The translations under genes were made by a program, and so were the position numbers. From Fodinibius sediminis (GTDB taxonomy: Bacteria > Bacteroidota > Rhodothermia > Balneolales > Balneolaceae), in the NCBI RefSeq assembly GCF_900182555.1, contig NZ_FXTH01000002.1:62001-126000 (forward strand): 64,000 bases of DNA, given 5' to 3'. Numbering within the stretch: position 1 is the stretch's first letter; every line of letters starts with the position of its first letter. Under the pieces are notes generated by a model, which saw only the letters and a program-made list of their open reading frames with translations, ran no database searches and had not been told where the DNA came from. This document shows positions 53,157-62,105 of this stretch, one piece after another.

Positions 53157-53969
53157 TTATAACTTACCATACTTCAACGAATGAACAAAAGCAAACACCT
53201 CATCCTTCCATCCTTCTTCAGGATAATGGGCTCTTATGGTATCTATAAGGGCACTTCCGACAATGAAGCCGTCCATATCGCGGGAAATACGCTGGGCGTC
53301 CTCATGCGATTTAATGCCAAAGCCAACCATTTTCGGATTGCGGGTGACATTCGTTTTAACGCGTTCAATAAACCGCTGTACCGACTGGGCAACCTCATCG
53401 CCTTCACGGGCTCCCGTGACGCCAGTAACAGAAACACAATATACAAAACCCTCTGAATGGGTATCAATCCTGCGCATACGCTCATCCGAGGTATTGGGAG
53501 CTACAAGGTAGACAATGGGGAGCCCGTGGGCCCTGGCCTCATCCACCATAATCCCTGATTCCTCAAGGGGGATATCAGGGATGATCAGTCCGTCTACACC
53601 GGAGGCGGCTGCCCGCTCACAAAAGCGGGTGACCCCATACCGCAGCACAGGATTAATGTACCCCATCAGGATAATCGGGATCTCAGAGTGTTTGCGCACC
53701 TCCCGGACCATATCAAAAATTTTATCCATGGTGATGCCCTGTTCTATGGCTACATTGCTGGAATATTGAATGGTCGGCCCATCGGCCAGGGGGTCGCTGA
53801 AGGGCATCCCAAGCTCTACAAGATCAGTACCGTTCTCTTCAAACCCCAAAATAAGCTCAACAGTCGATTCCAAATCGGGGTAACCGGCCGTCAGGAACAA
53901 GCTCATTATTTTGGATGAATCGCTGTGTTGTTCAAAAAGATTGTTAATTCTATTTTCCGTCTGAATCAT
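53157..53969 (-). CDS. trpA: tryptophan synthase alpha subunit
   Basis: Cleaves indole-3-glycerol phosphate to indole and glyceraldehyde phosphate and passes indole to TrpB through the inter-subunit tunnel. 270 residues, TIM barrel. Catalytic glutamate and aspartate lie in NGTDLVELGMPFSDPLADGP. Loop 6 region PNTSDERMRRIDTHSEGFVY and phosphate-binding VGFGIKSHEDAQRI followed by DGFIVGSALIDTI are present. It follows trpB by 76 nt and is the last enzyme gene of the operon. Confidence 0.96.
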   Translation of the reverse strand: MIQTENRINNLFEQHSDSSKIMSLFLTAGYPDLESTVELILGFEENGTDLVELGMPFSDPLADGPTIQYSSNVAIEQGITMDKIFDMVREVRKHSEIPIILMGYINPVLRYGVTRFCERAAASGVDGLIIPDIPLEESGIMVDEARAHGLPIVYLVAPNTSDERMRRIDTHSEGFVYCVSVTGVTGAREGDEVAQSVQRFIERVKTNVTRNPKMVGFGIKSHEDAQRISRDMDGFIVGSALIDTIRAHYPEEGWKDEVFAFVHSLKYGKL

Positions 53970-54045: not shown

Positions 54046-55239
54046 TTACAAGTTTTTGGAGATCGTTCCCATATCTTTATCACCACGGCCTGAACAGTTG
54101 AGTACAAGCAGTTCATCCTCCGTGGTCCTGGGCATCAATTCCTCCAGGTAGGCTACGGCGTGGGCCGTCTCGAGCGCCGGAATAATGCCCTCCTGCTCAG
54201 ATAACAATTTTACGCCCTCCATGGCCTGTTCATCGGTAATGGGGGCATAGATTACGCGGGAGGAATCCTGCAGGTAGGCATGTTCCGGGCCAATACCCGG
54301 ATAATCAAGTCCTGCACTGATCGAATGTGCCAGCTGAATTTGTCCCTCTTTATCATGCAGAAGATAACTCAGGGAACCATGGAGCACGCCGGGATCCCCA
54401 ATAGTAAGGGTGGCAGCAGTCTGATCGGTATCGGCACCCAGTCCCGCTGCTTCCACGCCATACATTTGAACCTTTTCATCCTCAATAAACGGATAAAAGA
54501 GACCTATAGCGTTGGATCCGCCGCCCACGCATGCCAGCAGATAATCCGGGAGCCTTCCTTCGACTTCCTCCAGCTGTTTCCTGGTCTCATCACCGATGAT
54601 GCGCTGGAAGTTTCGCACCATCTTGGGGTACGGATGCGGACCCACCGCCGAGCCGATGATGTAGAATGTATCCTCTACATTGGTCACCCAGTCGCGTATC
54701 GCCTCATTGGTAGCATCCTTCAACGTCTTTGAACCGCTTTCAACCGAACGCACTTCGGCCCCCAGCAGTCGCATGCGTTCCACATTCAGCTTCTGGCGCT
54801 CCATATCCTCGGCTCCCATATACACGATACAGTCGACCCCGAATTTCGCACAAGCGGTAGCTGTGGCAACCCCGTGCTGGCCGGCCCCCGTCTCAGCAAT
54901 AATCCGCTCTTTTCCCATACGCTGTGCAAGCAGGATCTGCCCGATCGCATTGTTAATCTTGTGAGCCCCCGTATGGCAGAGATCCTCGCGCTTCAGGTAA
55001 ATCCGCGCCCTGCCGTAATAGTCCGTCAGCCGATTGGCATAGGTCAACTTTGTCGGACGGCCGACATAGTCCTGCAAAAGATCCAGATAGGTATTTCTGA
55101 ATGCCTCGTCATTCCAGGCCCTGTTATAGGCTTCTTCCAATTCCTCCAATACGGGAATCAGAATTTCCGGAACAAACTTTCCGCCAAAATTACCGAAGTA
55201 CCCCTCCTTTGTTGGTAAATTATATCTCATAGCCGCCAT
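54046..55239 (-). CDS. trpB: tryptophan synthase beta subunit
   Basis: Condenses indole with serine using pyridoxal phosphate. 397 residues. The PLP lysine is Lys94 in [20 protein letters not shown], with [20 protein letters not shown], the TrpA-contacting loop, and the phosphate-cradle [15 protein letters not shown]. The C-terminal [20 protein letters not shown] contains the serine contacting the cofactor ring. This is the TrpB1 type that pairs with TrpA. Start ATG 55239; ATG 55230 is nine bases inside the gene. It begins 74 nt after trpF. Confidence 0.97.
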
Positions 55240-55313: not shown

Positions 55314-55988
55314 TTACAATTCACCCATTTCCTGCTGCTCCCAAATGGTCCGCATTTCATTCATAAATGCTTCAACCTTGTCGTAATCCTTCTTCCCCGG
55401 CTCACTCTCCAGGCCGCTGGCCACATCCACGGCATAGGGGTGAACCAGCCTACAGGCCTCATGAATGTTTCCGGGGGTCAGTCCTCCGGAAAGAAAAAAG
55501 GGAAGGTCGTCGGTAATCTCATCCAGCAGCTGCCAGTCAAAGGTTTCACCTGTACCGCCCCATTGCCCTTCCAGCTTCGTATCAAATAGCAGGAACTCCA
55601 CATTGCCCAGATAGGGTTCAATACGCTTCTCGATATCCTTGGGCTGGTCGCCCCGGCCGATATGGATAGCCTTGATCACCGGCTTGTCAACAAGATGACA
55701 GTAGTCTGGATTTTCATTTCCATGAAGCTGTACATAGTCAATTCCTGTCTGCCGGCTGATCATGTTCACATCGTCCAGCGGCTGATTGACAAATACCCCC
55801 ACACACTCCGGGCCCTCCACCCAGTTTATGACCGCCCCTGCCTTGGCCGGGGTGATATGGCGCTTGCTGTCTTCATAGAAAATGAAGCCCAGATAATCGG
55901 CCAAGGCCCCCGATACAAATCGGGCATCTGCCAGGGTGGTAATACCACATATCTTGACTTTGGATCGTTCCTCGGGATCTGCAAACAT
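55314..55988 (-). CDS. trpF: phosphoribosylanthranilate isomerase
   Basis: Isomerises phosphoribosyl-anthranilate to the deoxyribulose compound used by TrpC. 224 residues, TIM barrel. It starts KVKICGITTLADARFVSG, where Cys is the catalytic base, and has FYEDSKRHITPAKA, VQLHGNENPDYCHL, then FDTKLEGQWGGTGETFDWQL with the catalytic Asp, and FFLSGGLTPGNIHEACRLVH with AVDVASGLESEPGKKD for phosphate binding. It begins four nt after the trpC stop, so the two separate enzymes (fused in enterobacteria) are translationally linked. Confidence 0.95.
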   Translation of the reverse strand: MFADPEERSKVKICGITTLADARFVSGALADYLGFIFYEDSKRHITPAKAGAVINWVEGPECVGVFVNQPLDDVNMISRQTGIDYVQLHGNENPDYCHLVDKPVIKAIHIGRGDQPKDIEKRIEPYLGNVEFLLFDTKLEGQWGGTGETFDWQLLDEITDDLPFFLSGGLTPGNIHEACRLVHPYAVDVASGLESEPGKKDYDKVEAFMNEMRTIWEQQEMGEL

Positions 55989-55992
55989 CGGT

Positions 55993-56802
55993 TCAGCTCG
56001 TATGATTTATAAGTTGCTGTAATTCCTGTTTCATCGCACCTACGGCTTCACCGGGATTCGGCCGGCGCATGAAGTGTTCGCCTATAAGGGCCGAATGAAT
56101 ACCTTCATTGAATAAAAAATACAAATCCTCAGCCGATCCCAGTCCGCTTTCAGAAACCAGGACCGTTTCTTCCGGGGCCTGCTGCAGGATCCCCACCCCC
56201 CGGTGCAGATCCACCTCAAAGGTTCTGAGATCACGATTATTCACTCCCAGAATGTCAACAATATCGAAAGAAAGACGGTTAAAATCTTCTTCGGAATAAC
56301 ATTCAACCAGCGCCTGCATTCCAAACTCCCGCGTGGCGTGGAGCAGTTCCTCCAGCTGCTGGCCCTCGGTGATTGTAACAATCAGCAATACCGCATCAGC
56401 ACCATAGGCCCTGGCTTCCTTAACTTGATAGGGATCAATAATAAAGTCTTTGCGCAGCAATGGGATAGAAACTTCTTCAGAAGCTTCTTTTAAATACTTT
56501 AAGTGCCCCTGGAACGCCGGCTGGTCGGTAAGCACGGAGATGGCCGAGGCCCCTCCCTCCTCGTACTGACCTGCTATCCTTCGCGGATCGAAGTCCCGGC
56601 GGATAAGTCCTTTTGAAGGCGACGCCTTCTTGATCTCCGCAATAATGGAAACATCCGATGGGGTGTTCAGGGCCCCTTTAAAATCTCGTACCGGCTGTTC
56701 ATACATCTCATGCGACTCCAGATCCTTAAAGCTGACTTTTTTTCTGCGCTTTTCTAAATCAAGGGCCGTCTGTTCTACAATCTCGTCAAGTATCGTTGCC
56801 AT
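55993..56802 (-). CDS. trpC: indole-3-glycerol phosphate synthase
   Basis: Closes the indole ring with loss of CO2 and water. 269 residues. The N-terminal helix is followed by the lysine-containing SIIAEIKKASPSKGLIRRDF, GGASAISVLTDQPAFQGHLK, PLLRKDFIIDPYQVKEARAY with the catalytic lysine of RKDF, the Asn-containing DILGVNNRDLRTFEVDL and VSESGLGSAEDLYFLFNEGI. It starts four nt after the trpD stop. Confidence 0.96.
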   Translation of the reverse strand: MATILDEIVEQTALDLEKRRKKVSFKDLESHEMYEQPVRDFKGALNTPSDVSIIAEIKKASPSKGLIRRDFDPRRIAGQYEEGGASAISVLTDQPAFQGHLKYLKEASEEVSIPLLRKDFIIDPYQVKEARAYGADAVLLIVTITEGQQLEELLHATREFGMQALVECYSEEDFNRLSFDIVDILGVNNRDLRTFEVDLHRGVGILQQAPEETVLVSESGLGSAEDLYFLFNEGIHSALIGEHFMRRPNPGEAVGAMKQELQQLINHTS

Positions 56803-56806
56803 AATG

Positions 56807-57838
56807 CTAAATCTGCGCTACCTCGTTTGTTACTTCCACATACCGCTGCAATGCTTTTTCTGCTGCGCCTGAAAATAGACTTTCCTCCGCAAGCGATTTG
56901 GCTTCGGACAGGTCGTCGGCTTTGCCGGATGCGTGAATAGCGAAAGTAGCATTCAGCAAGGTAATGTTCTGTTGCGGCGCTTCAGCCCTGTTTGCCATGA
57001 TAGAACGGATAATGTCGGCATTATATTCAGCGTCCCCCCCCTGCAGTTCCTCAAGATCGGTCCAGCTGAAGTCGAGGGAGCGCGGATCAAAGGTTGTCGC
57101 CTCCTTCATCATCCGGTTGGTCAATTCATAAATCTCGGTCTGGGCACTCAGGCTCACCTCATCCAGTCCATCATGGGCATTCAGCGTATAGGCAAACTCG
57201 GTATCCAGGTTGGCCAGGATGCGGCCGATCTTGCGGGCGATATCCTTGTTGTATGCTCCGATCACCTGTCGTTTGACCATTGCAGGATTCAGCAACGGAC
57301 CCAGAATATTGAAAAAAGTGCGAATTCCCACGGTTCGCCGGGCTTTCATCACATGTCTCATGGCCGGATGAAAATTAGGGGCAAACATAAAAACAAGACC
57401 TGCCTCCTCAAAAACCTGTTCAACCTGCTCCTTCTGAAGGTCTATTAGCCCGCCCAGTGCTTCCAGAACATCAGCACTGCCGCTTTTGCTTGACACACTC
57501 CTGTTGCCATGCTTCAGCACCGGAACACCGGCTCCGGCCACGATAAACATCGAGGCCGTGGAGATATTGAACGTTCCGGAGCTGTCTCCCCCCGTCCCAC
57601 ACAAGTCTACCGCACCCTCGGTATCCACCTGGGGTTTAATGGCGGCCTCCCGCATCACTTCCACAAAGGCCGTCAGCTCTTCGATGGTCTCTCCCTTCAT
57701 CCTCACCGCTGTCAGGAAAGACGCAATTCGCTCATCTTCAACCTTCCCCGTGATGATCAACCGCAGGGCATGCCTCGCTTCTTCCAGGGTTAGATCACCA
57801 TGGTTGACCAGCTTGTTTAAGATTTCAATAAAATCCAT
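56807..57838 (-). CDS. trpD: anthranilate phosphoribosyltransferase
   Basis: Transfers phosphoribose from PRPP to anthranilate. 343 residues. Motifs: DLCGTGGDSSGTFNISTASM, the PRPP-binding and glycine-rich loop, VLKHGNRSVSSKSGSADVLE, FMFAPNFHPAMRHVMKARR and RTFFNILGPLLNPAMVKRQV. It is a stand-alone enzyme, not fused to TrpG, which is encoded just upstream with a 40-nt gap. Confidence 0.96.
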   Translation of the reverse strand: MDFIEILNKLVNHGDLTLEEARHALRLIITGKVEDERIASFLTAVRMKGETIEELTAFVEVMREAAIKPQVDTEGAVDLCGTGGDSSGTFNISTASMFIVAGAGVPVLKHGNRSVSSKSGSADVLEALGGLIDLQKEQVEQVFEEAGLVFMFAPNFHPAMRHVMKARRTVGIRTFFNILGPLLNPAMVKRQVIGAYNKDIARKIGRILANLDTEFAYTLNAHDGLDEVSLSAQTEIYELTNRMMKEATTFDPRSLDFSWTDLEELQGGDAEYNADIIRSIMANRAEAPQQNITLLNATFAIHASGKADDLSEAKSLAEESLFSGAAEKALQRYVEVTNEVAQI

Positions 57839-57878: not shown

Positions 57879-58466
57879 TTATTTTTGTACCTTCTGTTCC
57901 GTTTTCATGTCCATCCAGTTCTTTATGATATCCGGTCCTTCCGTGGTCAGAATGCTTTCCGGGTGAAACTGGATGCCTTCAACCGGGAAGGTCCGGTGCC
58001 GAATGCCCATGATCACCTCATCATCACTGTGCGCCGTAACAATCAACTCGCCGGGAATCTGTTCCGGATCCAGAACAAGGGAGTGGTAGCGGGTAGCCGT
58101 AAACTCATTAGGGATATCGCGAAAGACAGACTTCCCGTCATGCCTGATCGTGGAGGTTTTGCCATGCATCAGTTTTGGTGCATGTATGATCTTTCCGCCA
58201 TAGACTTCCCCAATGGCCTGAAGTCCCAGACAGACTCCCAAAATTGGCGTATCGGGCCCCATTTCTTTAATCAGGGGCTCTGTAATGCCTGCATCCACCG
58301 GACGTCCAGGACCCGGAGATATAAGGATTTTATCCGGCTTCAGGGCACGAACCTCTTCCACTGTGAGCACATCATTCCTGACGACCCGGTATTCGTCGGT
58401 ATGCTGGGCAATAATATCCACCAGGTTGTAGGTAAATGAATCGTAGTTGTCAATGATCAGGATCAT
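57879..58466 (-). CDS. trpG: anthranilate synthase glutamine amidotransferase subunit
   Basis: Supplies ammonia from glutamine to TrpE. 195 residues, class I amidotransferase. It starts LIIDNYDSFTYNLVDIIAQH, has ILISPGPGRPVDAGITEPLI, the nucleophile elbow ILGVCLGLQAIGEVYGGKII, and the His/Glu pair in VEGIQFHPESILTTEGPDII. It could also serve p-aminobenzoate synthesis as in several bacteria, but its location inside the trp operon favours anthranilate. Confidence 0.95.
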   Translation of the reverse strand: MILIIDNYDSFTYNLVDIIAQHTDEYRVVRNDVLTVEEVRALKPDKILISPGPGRPVDAGITEPLIKEMGPDTPILGVCLGLQAIGEVYGGKIIHAPKLMHGKTSTIRHDGKSVFRDIPNEFTATRYHSLVLDPEQIPGELIVTAHSDDEVIMGIRHRTFPVEGIQFHPESILTTEGPDIIKNWMDMKTEQKVQK

Positions 58467-58523: not shown

Positions 58524-59513
58524 TTAATCAGCAAAATCATAACTTTTAAATATGCCTGTAACCTCGCGGATCGGCGCCATTACAGACTCGGCTCGCTCCC
58601 GGGCCTTTTTACTGCCCTCGGCCAGGATATCCCGGACCGTATCCACATCCTGAGCCAATTCTTTGCGTTTGGCACGGGCCTCGGCAAAATAAACCTCAAT
58701 CATATCCAGCAGCTCATTTTTCGCATGCCCGTACCCATAGCCGCCTGCACGATATTTCTCTGCAATCTCATGCTGTTTCTCCTTGCCCGCAAATAGTTTA
58801 ATGAGTGCAAACACGTTGCATTTTTCCGGGTCCTTTGGCTCATCCAGCGGCGTAGAATCTGTTTCTATCGACATCACCTTTTTCTTAAGGGCTTTCCCCT
58901 CATCAAATATATCAATGGTATTGCCGTACGATTTACTCATTTTTCGCCCGTCCACTCCCGGCACCACGGCTACTGATTTTACAATGTATTCTTCCGGGAG
59001 CTTGAGGTATTCATCCCCGTAATTATGATTGAATTTTCCCGCCAGATCGCGGCAAATCTCAATATTCTGTTTCTGGTCCTGCCCCACAGGCACGACATCG
59101 GAATTGTATATCAGTATATCTGCCGCCTGCAGAATGGGGTAGGTAAAAAGACCGATATTGGGCGTCAGCCCCTGGGCAACCTTGTCTTTGTAGGCAACTG
59201 CCTTCTCCATCAGGCTTACCGGGCAAAAGGTACTCAGCATCCAGGCCAGCTCTGTAACCTGCGGCACATCGCTTTGTGCAAAAAACGTACATTTTTCAGG
59301 ATCAAGTCCCAGGGCAAGGTAATCCAGGGCGATATCAATCGTATTTTGATAGATCTCTTCCCCATCGTTTATTGACGTCATGGAATGGTAGTTGGCGATA
59401 AAATAAAACGCATCCCCCTTTTCCTGCATCTGGATATGCTGGCGCAAAGCCCCAAAATAGTTGCCAAGATGCAATTTGCCGGATGACTGAATGCCGGATA
59501 AGATAGTTTTCAT
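58524..59513 (-). CDS. trpS: tryptophanyl-tRNA synthetase
   Basis: Charges tRNA-Trp. 329 residues, the bacterial TrpRS length. Class I signatures are SGIQSSGKLHLGNYFGALRQ (HIGH equivalent) and VDGRKMSKSYGNTIDIFD (KMSKS). The tryptophan pocket region FFAQSDVPQVTELAWMLSTF and the VPVGQDQKQNIEICRDLAGK helix are present. It lies between trpE (64 nt upstream) and trpG (57 nt downstream) on the same strand, so it should be under the trp attenuator. That position is uncommon and couples charging capacity to biosynthesis. Confidence 0.96.
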   Translation of the reverse strand: MKTILSGIQSSGKLHLGNYFGALRQHIQMQEKGDAFYFIANYHSMTSINDGEEIYQNTIDIALDYLALGLDPEKCTFFAQSDVPQVTELAWMLSTFCPVSLMEKAVAYKDKVAQGLTPNIGLFTYPILQAADILIYNSDVVPVGQDQKQNIEICRDLAGKFNHNYGDEYLKLPEEYIVKSVAVVPGVDGRKMSKSYGNTIDIFDEGKALKKKVMSIETDSTPLDEPKDPEKCNVFALIKLFAGKEKQHEIAEKYRAGGYGYGHAKNELLDMIEVYFAEARAKRKELAQDVDTVRDILAEGSKKARERAESVMAPIREVTGIFKSYDFAD

Positions 59514-59577: not shown

Positions 59578-61056
59578 TCATTCACTGCCCGCCTCTGTAA
59601 TTTCCAGGGCCACACTGAGTGCCTCTACAAGTGCTCCAGCCTTGTTCTTGGTTTCAATATACTCCTTATACGGGTCACTGTCGGCCACAATACCTGCTCC
59701 CGCCTGTATATAGACTTTGGAATCGGTTACGATCATCGTCCGGATTGCTATACAGGTGTCCATATTGCCGGAAAAGTCAAAATAGCCGACGGCCCCGGCA
59801 TAAGGTCCGCGTTTTGTAGGTTCAAGTTCATCGATGATCTCCATCGCGCGGATTTTCGGGGCCCCGCTCACGGTTCCAGCAGGAAAGCACTGCATGAGTG
59901 CATCCACCGCCGTCTGATGTTCTGCCAATTGACCCTTTACATCCGAGACGATATGCATGACATGGGAATAGCGTTCAATAACCTGCTCACGAACAGGCTG
60001 AACGGTGCCGGGACGGCATACACGGGATAAATCATTGCGGCCCAGATCAACGAGCATCACATGTTCCGCAATCTCCTTGGGATCGTTTTTAAGATCCTCC
60101 TCCAGCGCCTGATCCTCCTGTTCTGTTTCTCCACGGGGACGCGTGCCGGCGATGGGCAGCAGCTGGGCTGTGTCATCCTGTACGCGAACCAGTACTTCCG
60201 GCGACGAACCGACCAGGGCAAAATCATCAAAGTCCAGGAAAAAGAGGTACGGGGAAGGGTTCACCATCCGGAGCGCCCGGTATAACATAAACCGGTCTCC
60301 CTCAAAGTCACTTTCAAACCGCTGCGATAGCACCACCTGGAAGATATCTCCCTCGTAAACATACTCTTTGGCCCGGCGAACCATTGATTCAAACTCTGAT
60401 TGCTCAATATTGCTGGACAGACGTTCGGGATTTATGGAAAACGAATGGTCTGTCAGCGGGGCCGGGCGGCGAATCAGGTCTTCAAGCTCGTCGAGGCGGG
60501 CCTGGGCCTCCCCATACCGTTTCCTGACCGGGTCATCCCCATCAACAAACACTGTTTTAATGATAATGACCTGCTGTTTAACATGATCAAAAGCAAAGAC
60601 CTCGTCATAAAAGGCCCAGATAGCTTCCGGTATATCAACATCCGATGCGGGCGGATGAGGCAGCTGCTCAACCTCTCGCACCGTATCGTAGGATGAAAAA
60701 CCCACGGCCCCTCCCGTCAGCCGGGGGAGGCTGGGGAGTTTCGGCTCGCTGTGCTGAGTTGTCAATTCTTTCAGCGCTTCAAAATACGGCTGATCCAGGA
60801 CCGATTTGCCGTCTTCGTTCTCCAGACTAACCTCGGCTCCGTCGTACTGCAGCACCTGGTACGGATCGCGGCCCAGGAAGGAATAGCGGGCCAGCTGCTC
60901 GCCTCCCTCCACCGATTCCAACAAGAAAGGATACCGGCCATTTTCCCTGAGTTTCAAAAATAAAGACACGGGGGTTAAAATATCAGCCATAAGCTGACGA
61001 TATACCGGAATAGCGGTATAGCTACCAGCCAGCTCTTTAAATTTATCAACGTCCAT
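59578..61056 (-). CDS. trpE: anthranilate synthase component I
   Basis: Converts chorismate and ammonia to anthranilate, the committed step to tryptophan. 492 residues. The N-terminal feedback site PFLLESVEGGEQLARYSFLG carries the LLES motif that binds inhibitory tryptophan, so the enzyme should be feedback-regulated. The chorismate-binding domain shows GDIFQVVLSQRFESDFEGDR, LVGSSPEVLVRVQDD, PIAGTRPRGETEQEDQALEE, then LVDLGRNDLSRVCRPGTV and TVSGAPKIRAMEIIDELEPT. It is the first structural gene after the trp leader and attenuator. Confidence 0.96.
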   Translation of the reverse strand: MDVDKFKELAGSYTAIPVYRQLMADILTPVSLFLKLRENGRYPFLLESVEGGEQLARYSFLGRDPYQVLQYDGAEVSLENEDGKSVLDQPYFEALKELTTQHSEPKLPSLPRLTGGAVGFSSYDTVREVEQLPHPPASDVDIPEAIWAFYDEVFAFDHVKQQVIIIKTVFVDGDDPVRKRYGEAQARLDELEDLIRRPAPLTDHSFSINPERLSSNIEQSEFESMVRRAKEYVYEGDIFQVVLSQRFESDFEGDRFMLYRALRMVNPSPYLFFLDFDDFALVGSSPEVLVRVQDDTAQLLPIAGTRPRGETEQEDQALEEDLKNDPKEIAEHVMLVDLGRNDLSRVCRPGTVQPVREQVIERYSHVMHIVSDVKGQLAEHQTAVDALMQCFPAGTVSGAPKIRAMEIIDELEPTKRGPYAGAVGYFDFSGNMDTCIAIRTMIVTDSKVYIQAGAGIVADSDPYKEYIETKNKAGALVEALSVALEITEAGSE

Positions 61057-61094
61057 ATTCGTTTTGACTACCTCAAACTATTATCCAAATAAAA

Positions 61095-61122
61095 AACCCA
61101 CTCCAGTTTCCTGCAGTGGGTT
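61095..61122 (-). terminator. trp attenuator terminator hairpin (3:4)
   Basis: On the minus strand AACCCACT and AGTGGGTT pair (8 bp), then a G-G mismatch, CAG/CTG and a GAAA loop, followed at once by TTTTTTATTT. The ascending arm contains CCACTGC (61119-61113), which can instead pair with GCAGTGG at 61168-61162 to form the antiterminator. Confidence 0.88.
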
Positions 61123-61150
61123 CTCAAAAGCTCTTTCAAAAAAATCTAAC

Positions 61151-61228
61151 TCATAATGCTGCCACTGCCTGTATGTATTTCGCTACAGGCCACCACCAAT
61201 TGCTGTTATTATGAGATATCTTTTCCAT
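61151..61228 (-). CDS. trpL: trp operon leader peptide with three tandem Trp codons
   Basis: A 25-codon reading frame from ATG 61228 to TGA 61151, beginning MEKISHNNSN and followed by three consecutive Trp codons (61198-61190), then PVAKYIQAVAAL. It precedes trpE and its terminator by less than 60 nt. Segment 1 GCCTGTA (61190-61184) overlaps the last Trp codon and pairs with segment 2 TACAGGC (61173-61167). The stop codon lies just past segment 2, so a ribosome finishing the peptide covers segment 2 and frees the 3:4 terminator; one stalled at Trp codons covers segment 1 and lets 2:3 form. This is the classical ribosome-mediated attenuation layout, read directly from the sequence. Confidence 0.88.
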   Translation of the reverse strand: MEKISHNNSNWWWPVAKYIQAVAAL

Positions 61229-61235
61229 TTCGGAA

Positions 61236-61267
61236 TGAATATAATAGCCGTATCAGCTAAAAGCAAA
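61236..61267 (-). promoter_or_regulatory. candidate trp operon promoter
   Basis: On the minus strand TTTG (61267-61264) and TATATTCA (61243-61236), 20 nt apart, are partial matches to the Bacteroidota -33 and -7 elements. Transcription would begin only a few bases before the leader ATG, so the leader mRNA may have a very short 5' end. Alternative upstream starts cannot be excluded. Confidence 0.35.
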
Positions 61268-61307: not shown

Positions 61308-62105
61308 CTACTCTCCGAATGCTTGCTTGTAGAACAGAACAGCCCCAATAATGATGCCTTTTAGTACAAAGGCTGAAAAGACCATCATGAGCCCGATTTC
61401 CTGGAATAACAGGATAAGCACGCCATAAAAAAGAAATAGTGCAATCTTGCCCTTGTATTTTTTTAGAGAATATTTGTCGAAGCTGGGGATTTTATCAAAC
61501 GGTATTGTACTTACCATCAAAAATGAAAGCAGGATGATCAGGGGAACCAAAATAGTGTTCGGACCATATTTAAAGTCTGCGAAAAGATCCAGCCGGTTGT
61601 AAAAGGTGAGGTAAAAAGCAGCAATCATGATTGCCTGAGCGGGAATGGGCAATCCCTTGAAAAAATCTGTCCGGCTCTCCTGTACATCAACATTATAGCG
61701 GGCAAGCCGCACCGCTCCGCACAGCGGAGGCAGGGCACTCAGGATAATCCCGACAAAAGGCATCTCGCCCAGTCCGAAGCTGAAAAGCAGGAAACCGGGG
61801 GCCACACCAAAAGAAACCACATCGCTGATGGAATCGAGCTCAATGCCGAACTGGCTGGTGGCATTGGAGAGACGGGCCATAAAGCCGTCCAGTGCATCAA
61901 AGAGGCCTGCAAATACGATAAGCCACGCTCCAAAAAAAAGCCGGCCCTCTGAAATACTGATAATGGCCAGAAAACCACAAAAGAGATTCATCAGGGTGAA
62001 AAAGCTGGGCACCACAATGCGGGGAATCTGCTTGGAGGGACGATCCTTTTTTTTCTGTCTCCTGCGACGTCGGAATCGTTTCCACTTTTGTATAGGATAT
62101 TTCAT
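61308..62105 (-). CDS. pssA: CDP-diacylglycerol-serine O-phosphatidyltransferase
   Basis: Makes phosphatidylserine from CDP-diacylglycerol and serine at the inner membrane. 265 residues with a strongly basic N-terminus (KWKRFRRRRRQKKKDRPS) and about six to eight hydrophobic helices. The CDP-alcohol phosphotransferase motif DG-x2-AR-x8-G-x3-D-x3-D is visible in ALDGFMARLSNATSQFGIEL followed by DSISDVVSFG. It starts one nt after the psd stop, so PssA and Psd are co-translated and provide phosphatidylethanolamine in two steps. Confidence 0.93.
   Translation of the reverse strand: MKYPIQKWKRFRRRRRQKKKDRPSKQIPRIVVPSFFTLMNLFCGFLAIISISEGRLFFGAWLIVFAGLFDALDGFMARLSNATSQFGIELDSISDVVSFGVAPGFLLFSFGLGEMPFVGIILSALPPLCGAVRLARYNVDVQESRTDFFKGLPIPAQAIMIAAFYLTFYNRLDLFADFKYGPNTILVPLIILLSFLMVSTIPFDKIPSFDKYSLKKYKGKIALFLFYGVLILLFQEIGLMMVFSAFVLKGIIIGAVLFYKQAFGE

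Follow-up and report, generated by a model that had tools for sequence, protein, structure and literature searches.

Does the region ahead of trpE in Fodinibius sediminis carry a complete ribosome-mediated trp attenuator, and how far does such an element reach beyond what is known? The DNA analysed (the window) is a stretch of 64 000 nucleotides on contig 2 of the genome. In the trp attenuator of E. coli, a leader peptide with tandem Trp codons accompanies RNA segments that pair in mutually exclusive ways (1:2, 2:3, 3:4), and the stop codon is placed so that the terminating ribosome covers segment 2. An original prediction from the sequence had assigned the same parts to the window, and every coordinate of its leader, Trp codons, segments 1 to 4 and terminator was reproduced on the minus strand (Table 1). 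The locus is best explained as a transcription attenuator of the ribosome-mediated type, with charged tRNA-Trp as the signal sensed, at a probability of about 0.93.

Table 1. Attenuator parts and operon genes, in window positions.
Feature	Position	Strand	Details
Predicted promoter	61236..61266	minus	TTG 61266-61264, N20, TATATTC(A) 61243-61236; predicted start about 61231
Leader peptide ORF, MEKISHNNSNWWWPVAKYIQAVAAL + stop	61151..61228	minus	ATG 61228-61226, TGA 61153-61151, 25 codons
Three tandem Trp control codons, TGG TGG TGG	61190..61198	minus	read from the sequence, kept in relatives
Segment 1, GCCTGTA	61184..61190	minus	pairs with TACAGGC 61173-61167 of segment 2
Segment 2	61162..61173	minus	TACAGGC (61173-61167) pairs with segment 1, GCAGTGG (61168-61162) with segment 3
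Segment 3, terminator 5′ arm	61111..61122	minus	CCACTGC 61119-61113 pairs with segment 2
Segment 4, terminator 3′ arm	61095..61106	minus	folding and alignment; 3:4 stem within 61122-61095
T-run 3′ of terminator stem	61091..61096	minus	two leading T base-paired to the two A of segment 3
trpE	59578..61056	minus	TIGR00564, 563.1 bits, above cut-off; first gene after the element
trpS	58524..59513	minus	TIGR00233 above cut-off; sole tryptophanyl-tRNA synthetase gene found in the genome
trpG	57879..58466	minus	TIGR00566 above cut-off
trpD	56807..57838	minus	TIGR01245 above cut-off
trpC	55993..56802	minus	NF001377 above cut-off
trpF	55314..55988	minus	best match NF002298 at 209.2 bits, just under the 215 cut-off; also by position
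trpB	54046..55239	minus	TIGR00263 above cut-off
Probable trpA	53157..53969	minus	ORF and position, identity by eye

The short leader ORF with its tandem Trp codons lies upstream of the trp biosynthetic genes; it has one in-frame ATG only, its stop codon falls beyond segment 2, and an intrinsic terminator stands between it and the first gene. A pattern derived from the element (TGGTGG-N60-90-GTGGGYTTTT) had a single match in the 4.43 Mb genome and none in the reversed control. The 156-nt element folded at −45.9 kcal/mol (shuffled mean −32.9, z −3.99), and 0 of 200 dinucleotide shuffles were as good. The terminator hairpin was found by the folding scan and is absent from the list of a simple terminator scan, because its stem carries a mismatch; the 10 terminators that the simple scan listed for the region do not exceed expectation (8.8).

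Other known regulators were searched for by model. No Rfam family, the proteobacterial trp leader and the T-box included, was found in the window at the gathering score, so that a known family was rejected for the element; with E values up to 10 there were seven matches only, all to unrelated families. T-box control was rejected for lack of a covariance-model match upstream. Neither TrpR (PF01371) nor TRAP (PF02081) was matched in the genome (assembly 97.92 % complete), and control of the operon by either was rejected; among 14 control genomes, PF01371 matched E. coli and B. subtilis, and PF02081 matched B. subtilis.

Relatives were gathered by trpE, using the 80 best of 261 loci found in named genomes. 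Four distant loci were set outside the group (L079, L081 and L083, of Ignavibacteria type, and L082, from a Bacteroidetes bin), whereas L052, L062, L066 and L067 were assigned to it by TrpE identity and gene order. Upstream counts rest on 72 loci, as the trpE start is missing in L032, L064, L078 and L080, which were kept for the trpS count. The window TrpE is 79-83 % identical to Fodinibius and Aliifodinibius records, which puts the window in Balneolota close to Fodinibius; all 681 records of a plasmid collection with which it was compared were below 60 %. A tandem-Trp leader followed by a terminator was present in 61 of the 72 relatives with upstream sequence, and L027 has a Trp-Cys-Trp leader and, judged by eye, a similar terminator; the Trp codons are thus kept in 62 of 72. 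The Trp leader is missing in ten (L049, L050, L054, L055, L057, L058, L059, L062, L063 and L071). Across 61 leaders (the window and 60 relatives) the run has three Trp codons in 54, two in four and four in three, and the peptide is variable outside it. A wider sample of 60 genomes outside the family, chosen by hand from the best matches listed, gave a WW or WWW leader in 6/6 of the same order and, by reading, a convincing Trp-rich leader in 16/29 from the rest of the class (two in family f12 being ambiguous) and in 3/25 from other classes.

For the pairing tests, segments were located sequence by sequence in the window and 61 relatives, L027 standing outside the pairing tables. Three groups (A, B and C, with 30, 15 and 13 sequences) were formed, the outliers L065, L066, L067 and L077 being left out; alignment A5 drew on 41 of the 45 group A and B sequences. 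The shuffle and swap tests were run after removal of exact duplicates, with shuffles that kept base composition only. The summed 1:2 energy of 52 distinct sequences was −344.8 (shuffled mean −135.6), and no shuffle of 300 was as low. Own partners averaged −8.02 compared with −5.64 after swapping, a difference reached in 0 of 5000 pooled permutations; swaps within groups A, B and C gave 0, 0 and 94 of 5000. These per-sequence folds and swaps were preferred for 1:2 because the helix slides between registers, which makes column counts poor (76.4 % of cells paired, with slides of +1 and +2 scoring similarly for covariation).

For 2:3, the summed energy of 57 distinct sequences was −755.0 against a shuffled mean of −335.3 (0/300 as low), and the pooled swap gave 0/5000 both for the chosen segments and for whole regions. 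With the fold energy and 1:2, these shuffles rule out a chance origin of the element. Swaps within groups reached the observed value in 417 of 5000 permutations for A (234 for whole regions), 125 (15) for B and 8 (4) for C. In group A, the clade of the window, five of the seven 2:3 pairs are invariant and no pair has changed on both sides; with the weaker swaps, the window's own group alone thus gives no covariation proof of 2:3. The compensating changes that the original prediction called for are found in 1:2, and for 2:3 across clades, where the partners change jointly (CAGTGG/CCACTG, CAGCGGG/CCCGCTG and CTGAAAGCGG/CCGCTTTCAG). In the Balneola-type clade 99.2 % of 2:3 cells are paired, with U-A replaced by C-G in three sequences. 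The CAGCGGG sequences (L015, L028 and L039) still have GAGTGGG as segment 4, so that 2:3 is restored while 3:4 now has a G-U pair, an argument for conservation of 2:3 in its own right. The terminator stem has five double-changed cells in two pairs; 2:3 is weak in L065 (−4.3), L066 (−5.0), L067 (−7.3) and L072 (−7.8). A stretch resembling AAAGAATTTT is loosely conserved between segments 2 and 3 in many relatives (about columns 65-80 of alignment A1); its window version is AAAGAGCTTTT, at about 61138-61126, and it may be a pause or spacer element.

The leader might instead act by translational or Rho control, or through a peptide that senses free Trp like TnaC, with the terminator as a side feature; cys leader peptides without clear terminators have been described in Actinobacteria (PMC1262725). 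Such control is very improbable at this locus: all 61 tandem-Trp relatives have a terminator 3′ of the Trp codons, as does L027 by eye; covariation links segments 2 and 3 across clades; and the variability of the peptide outside the Trp run argues against a specific arrest peptide.

The alternative folds that classical attenuation by a translating ribosome requires were reproduced when ribosome footprints were entered as unpaired masks. Before segment 4 is made, 1:2 forms with a probability of 0.955 without a ribosome, and 2:3 with 0.999 when a ribosome stands on the first or third Trp codon. With the ribosome at the stop codon, segment 3 stays unpaired and available to the terminator. At full length, 3:4 was more stable than 2:3 in every state tested, that of the stalled ribosome included; antitermination must therefore be kinetic, that is, rest on timing, as the classical model assumes. 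The stop codon lies 11-12 codons past the Trp run in 42 of 61 leaders, the window among them, three codons past it in 14, and in between in five. Judged from the distances in the printed examples, a ribosome terminating at either stop position would cover segment 2, reaching it from the 3′ side in one case and the 5′ side in the other.

A promoter motif of fixed spacing precedes the leader. TTG-N20/21-TAnnTT[CTA] was found ahead of all 61 leaders, with a spacer of 20 in all but one, which has 21. It ends 4-9 nt upstream of the ATG in each, two leaders being set to a nearer ATG. For this count the start was placed at the most distant in-frame ATG in the range of 7-13 codons ahead of the Trp run (the nearest for L019 and L075), and L043, whose leader is without an in-frame ATG, was left out. 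When a spacer of exactly 20 and an end 3-10 nt before the ATG were required, 60/61 fit; in 200 shuffles that kept base composition only, the mean was 0.16 and the highest value 2 of 61. At other offsets the fixed-spacer motif was found in 0 of 7930 cases. The start is ambiguous in 15/61 leaders, which have several in-frame ATGs within 13 codons; if the nearest ATG is used throughout, 48/61 lie within 3-10 nt of the motif and 13 at 11-29 nt. In the wider sample, the motif stood 5-6 nt before the ATG in 6/6 genomes of the same order. Among the 16 class members with a leader, it was seen at 5-9 nt in nine, in two more if an upstream ATG is used, and was absent in four (15 of the 16 are covered by these counts; in G144 the scan picked a different ORF, and in G251 and G349 it used internal ATGs). 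In two genomes of other classes it lay 12 nt from the ATG.

In Flavobacterium psychrophilum, a TAnnTTTG box occupies −12 to −5 (PMC9723704). If this rule is valid here, the window RNA would have its 5′ end near 61231, which is 3 nt upstream of the ATG; for the remaining leaders the distance would be about 0-4 nt. A near-leaderless leader mRNA is therefore predicted. A strict form of the pattern matched the leader alone in the whole genome, so a near-leaderless start is not claimed for other genes, and none of five Cys/Met, Cys or Met leaders that were read shared the spacing. In two relatives of the wider group for which measurements exist, few mRNAs are leaderless: they make up 5.5 % in F. 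psychrophilum, in which Shine-Dalgarno sequences are said to be absent (PMC9723704), and about 3.7 % of 5′ UTRs are under 10 nt in B. thetaiotaomicron (PMC7366714). A regulator with a leader seemingly fixed in near-leaderless form would allow a direct test of how ribosomes in this group load fast enough for coupled attenuation.

The motif bears on whether the hairpin is simply the terminator of the upstream pssA, with a trpE promoter downstream of it and the WWW ORF incidental. The gene pssA does lie upstream on the same strand, ending at 61308, and intergenic terminators are common. This is hardly credible, as the Trp leader, 1:2, 2:3 and the leader promoter motif are conserved jointly with the terminator; a sigma-70 scan from 61095 to 61056 of the minus strand gave no site (the promoter type of this group differs), and no TAnnTTTG box was seen by eye between terminator and trpE. 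An attenuator as described could also have an added action in trans of the terminated RNA or the leader peptide, like that reported for rnTrpL/peTrpL of Sinorhizobium meliloti, where rnTrpL begins with the trpL ATG (PMC7298713) much as the near-leaderless mRNA predicted here would; we consider this addition unlikely, the peptide being little conserved beyond the Trp run.

The operon that the attenuator would control includes the charging enzyme. One match to tryptophanyl-tRNA synthetase (TrpRS) in the genome was above the cut-off and a second far below it. Among the seven genes searched, trpS came next after trpE on the same strand in 76/76 loci of the group, at a distance of 6-472 nt (median 82), and trpG followed trpS in 72; the sequence ends first in L014, L023 and L074, and L071 is without trpG. 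No trpS match after trpE was obtained in the four distant loci. In a search of the family, trpS was found in 87/92 genomes and in 66/66 near-complete ones, as two partial pieces in two genomes and singly in the remainder. The order trpE-trpS-trpG-trpD was present in 9/10 order and class loci of the wider sample and in 0/3 of other classes; several of the order and class loci have a gap of some 600-750 nt after trpE.

The proposed mechanism takes transcription-translation coupling in this group as an assumed part. Transcription would begin about 3 nt before the leader ATG, so that the ribosome would load at the very 5′ end. With Trp-tRNA plentiful, it would reach the stop codon and cover segment 2, and the 3:4 terminator would halt transcription before trpE. 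With Trp-tRNA scarce, it would stall on the three Trp codons and cover segment 1; 2:3 would then form before segment 4, and RNA polymerase would continue into trpE-trpS-trpG-D-C-F-B-A, with co-transcription expected as far as trpA. In the absence of translation, 1:2 would form and the terminator prevail. As the sole trpS lies within the operon, low charging of tRNA-Trp, from too little Trp or too little TrpRS, would increase the Trp pathway and the charging enzyme alike; this placement makes a simple, testable charging-feedback circuit.

The element is a real, well-supported classical attenuator, a lineage variant and not a new kind. It resembles that of E. coli in its tandem Trp codons, its segments 1-4 with exclusive pairings and a stop placed so that the ribosome covers segment 2; a peptide ending three codons past the Trp run, as in E. 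coli, occurs in 14 of the 61 leaders. It differs in usually having three Trp codons (54/61), a window stop beyond segment 2, a predicted near-leaderless mRNA, trpS in the operon and no TrpR match in the genome.

The original prediction had held that a clean example outside Proteobacteria would extend the documented range of the mechanism. It is not the first, since Actinobacteria and the Bacteroid-trp RNA of Rfam precede it. A 2010 statement limited leader-peptide systems, to its authors' knowledge, to Proteobacteria and Actinobacteria, with Firmicutes added (PMC2965389); Corynebacterium and Streptomyces are described as having classical trp attenuators (PMC1262725), and there are clues for leader-peptide attenuation in F. 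psychrophilum (PMC9723704). Further background is given in PMC4833913 and PMC8305728. What stands is that no description of attenuation in Balneolota or Rhodothermia was found among the papers listed in a search of largely open-access literature, and that no Rfam model detects the window element; the locus thus provides a complete, covariation-supported trp attenuator for such a group. New here are the near-leaderless promoter spacing and trpS in the controlled operon, neither of which the prediction had remarked on, and a Cys/Met-codon attenuator candidate in the genome.

Bacteroid-trp (RF01692) is a probable cis-regulatory RNA of Bacteroidetes (PMC2864571, Weinberg 2010), the same phylum as the window in the grouping used. 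One example read by eye (L174) has a WWW leader, MQTILNNTWWWNNLRQTS, and a terminator ahead of a trpE-like gene, a layout like that of the window; unlike in the window, about 17 nt separate its TAnnTTTG-like box from the ATG. Among 296 genomes sampled from the phylum, the model found 34 (27 above the cut-off; families f18, f24, f26, f29 and f45) and none in f1, the family of the window, under filter settings that miss weak matches. The window stretch gave no match at E values up to 10, nor any at the membership threshold of 49 bits.

The near-leaderless feature has precedents elsewhere, since S. meliloti trpL (PMC7298713) and several leader peptides of Streptomyces lividans (PMC8079986) are leaderless. 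The leader ORF lies at or beside the RNA 5′ end in these by measurement, and in the window it would do so by prediction; they belong to other phyla with other promoter types. Trp-codon attenuators are also described upstream of trpS/trpS2 in Streptomyces (PMC1262725). There, too, a TrpRS gene is under such control, although the attenuator is directly upstream of trpS, whereas here the sole trpS lies inside the trp operon behind trpE.

A covariance model built from 41 Trp elements matched 80/92 family genomes at E 0.01 and 93/195 class genomes, some matches being weak and away from trpE. Twelve lower-scoring matches were read, of which two are trpE leaders and five apparent ordinary terminators after genes. 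L201, L203 and L204 have a Cys/Met-rich leader and a terminator ahead of a rhodanese gene (supported by Pfam for L201). L206 (G016:C11, about 467356-467535) has a Met-rich leader and a terminator ahead of a TonB-receptor-like gene with receptor domains by Pfam, and L212 (G067:C9, about 225831-225970) a CCCC leader, MFFNISCCCCFAEKRCDL, and a terminator ahead of a PAPS-reductase-like gene (PAPS reductase by Pfam). In the genome of the window, L213 (G000:C4, contig 4, about 237134-236965, minus strand) has a Cys/Met-rich leader, MNLLNQIHTVFAMASVMCMCCCTDALQGSGADISK, a predicted antiterminator (2:3 duplex −18.6 kcal/mol) and a terminator; the genes after it are rhodanese-like (judged from L201) and sulfite/nitrite-reductase-like, and it is a candidate second attenuator of this genome, on sulfur genes. 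Cys leaders described in Actinobacteria are without clear terminators (PMC1262725). We lean towards a lineage-wide attenuator on amino-acid operons in Balneolota and much of Rhodothermia, in which control codons would be interchangeable (Trp, near-leaderless, at trpE-trpS; Cys/Met at sulfur-assimilation genes) and TrpRS behind a Trp-tRNA sensor would close the loop, the charging level setting both Trp supply and charging capacity.

Two further kinds of trpE upstream region were seen. By eye, the nine loci other than L071 that are missing the Trp leader retain the terminator within the 260 bases upstream of trpE (alignment A4); several have a promoter-like TTG-N20-TATATT, and a conserved CTCNAANG and a TGTCACTAGTGTTTACCCACTTTTT-like block are present. 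This region is a candidate for a different trp leader RNA. The Ignavibacteria-type loci L079, L081 and L083 and G316 (L168) have leaders with interspersed aromatics (for example NWYWFWYRWYG and RTWYWSYWYQ) and a strong terminator, and are probably a further trp attenuator variant.
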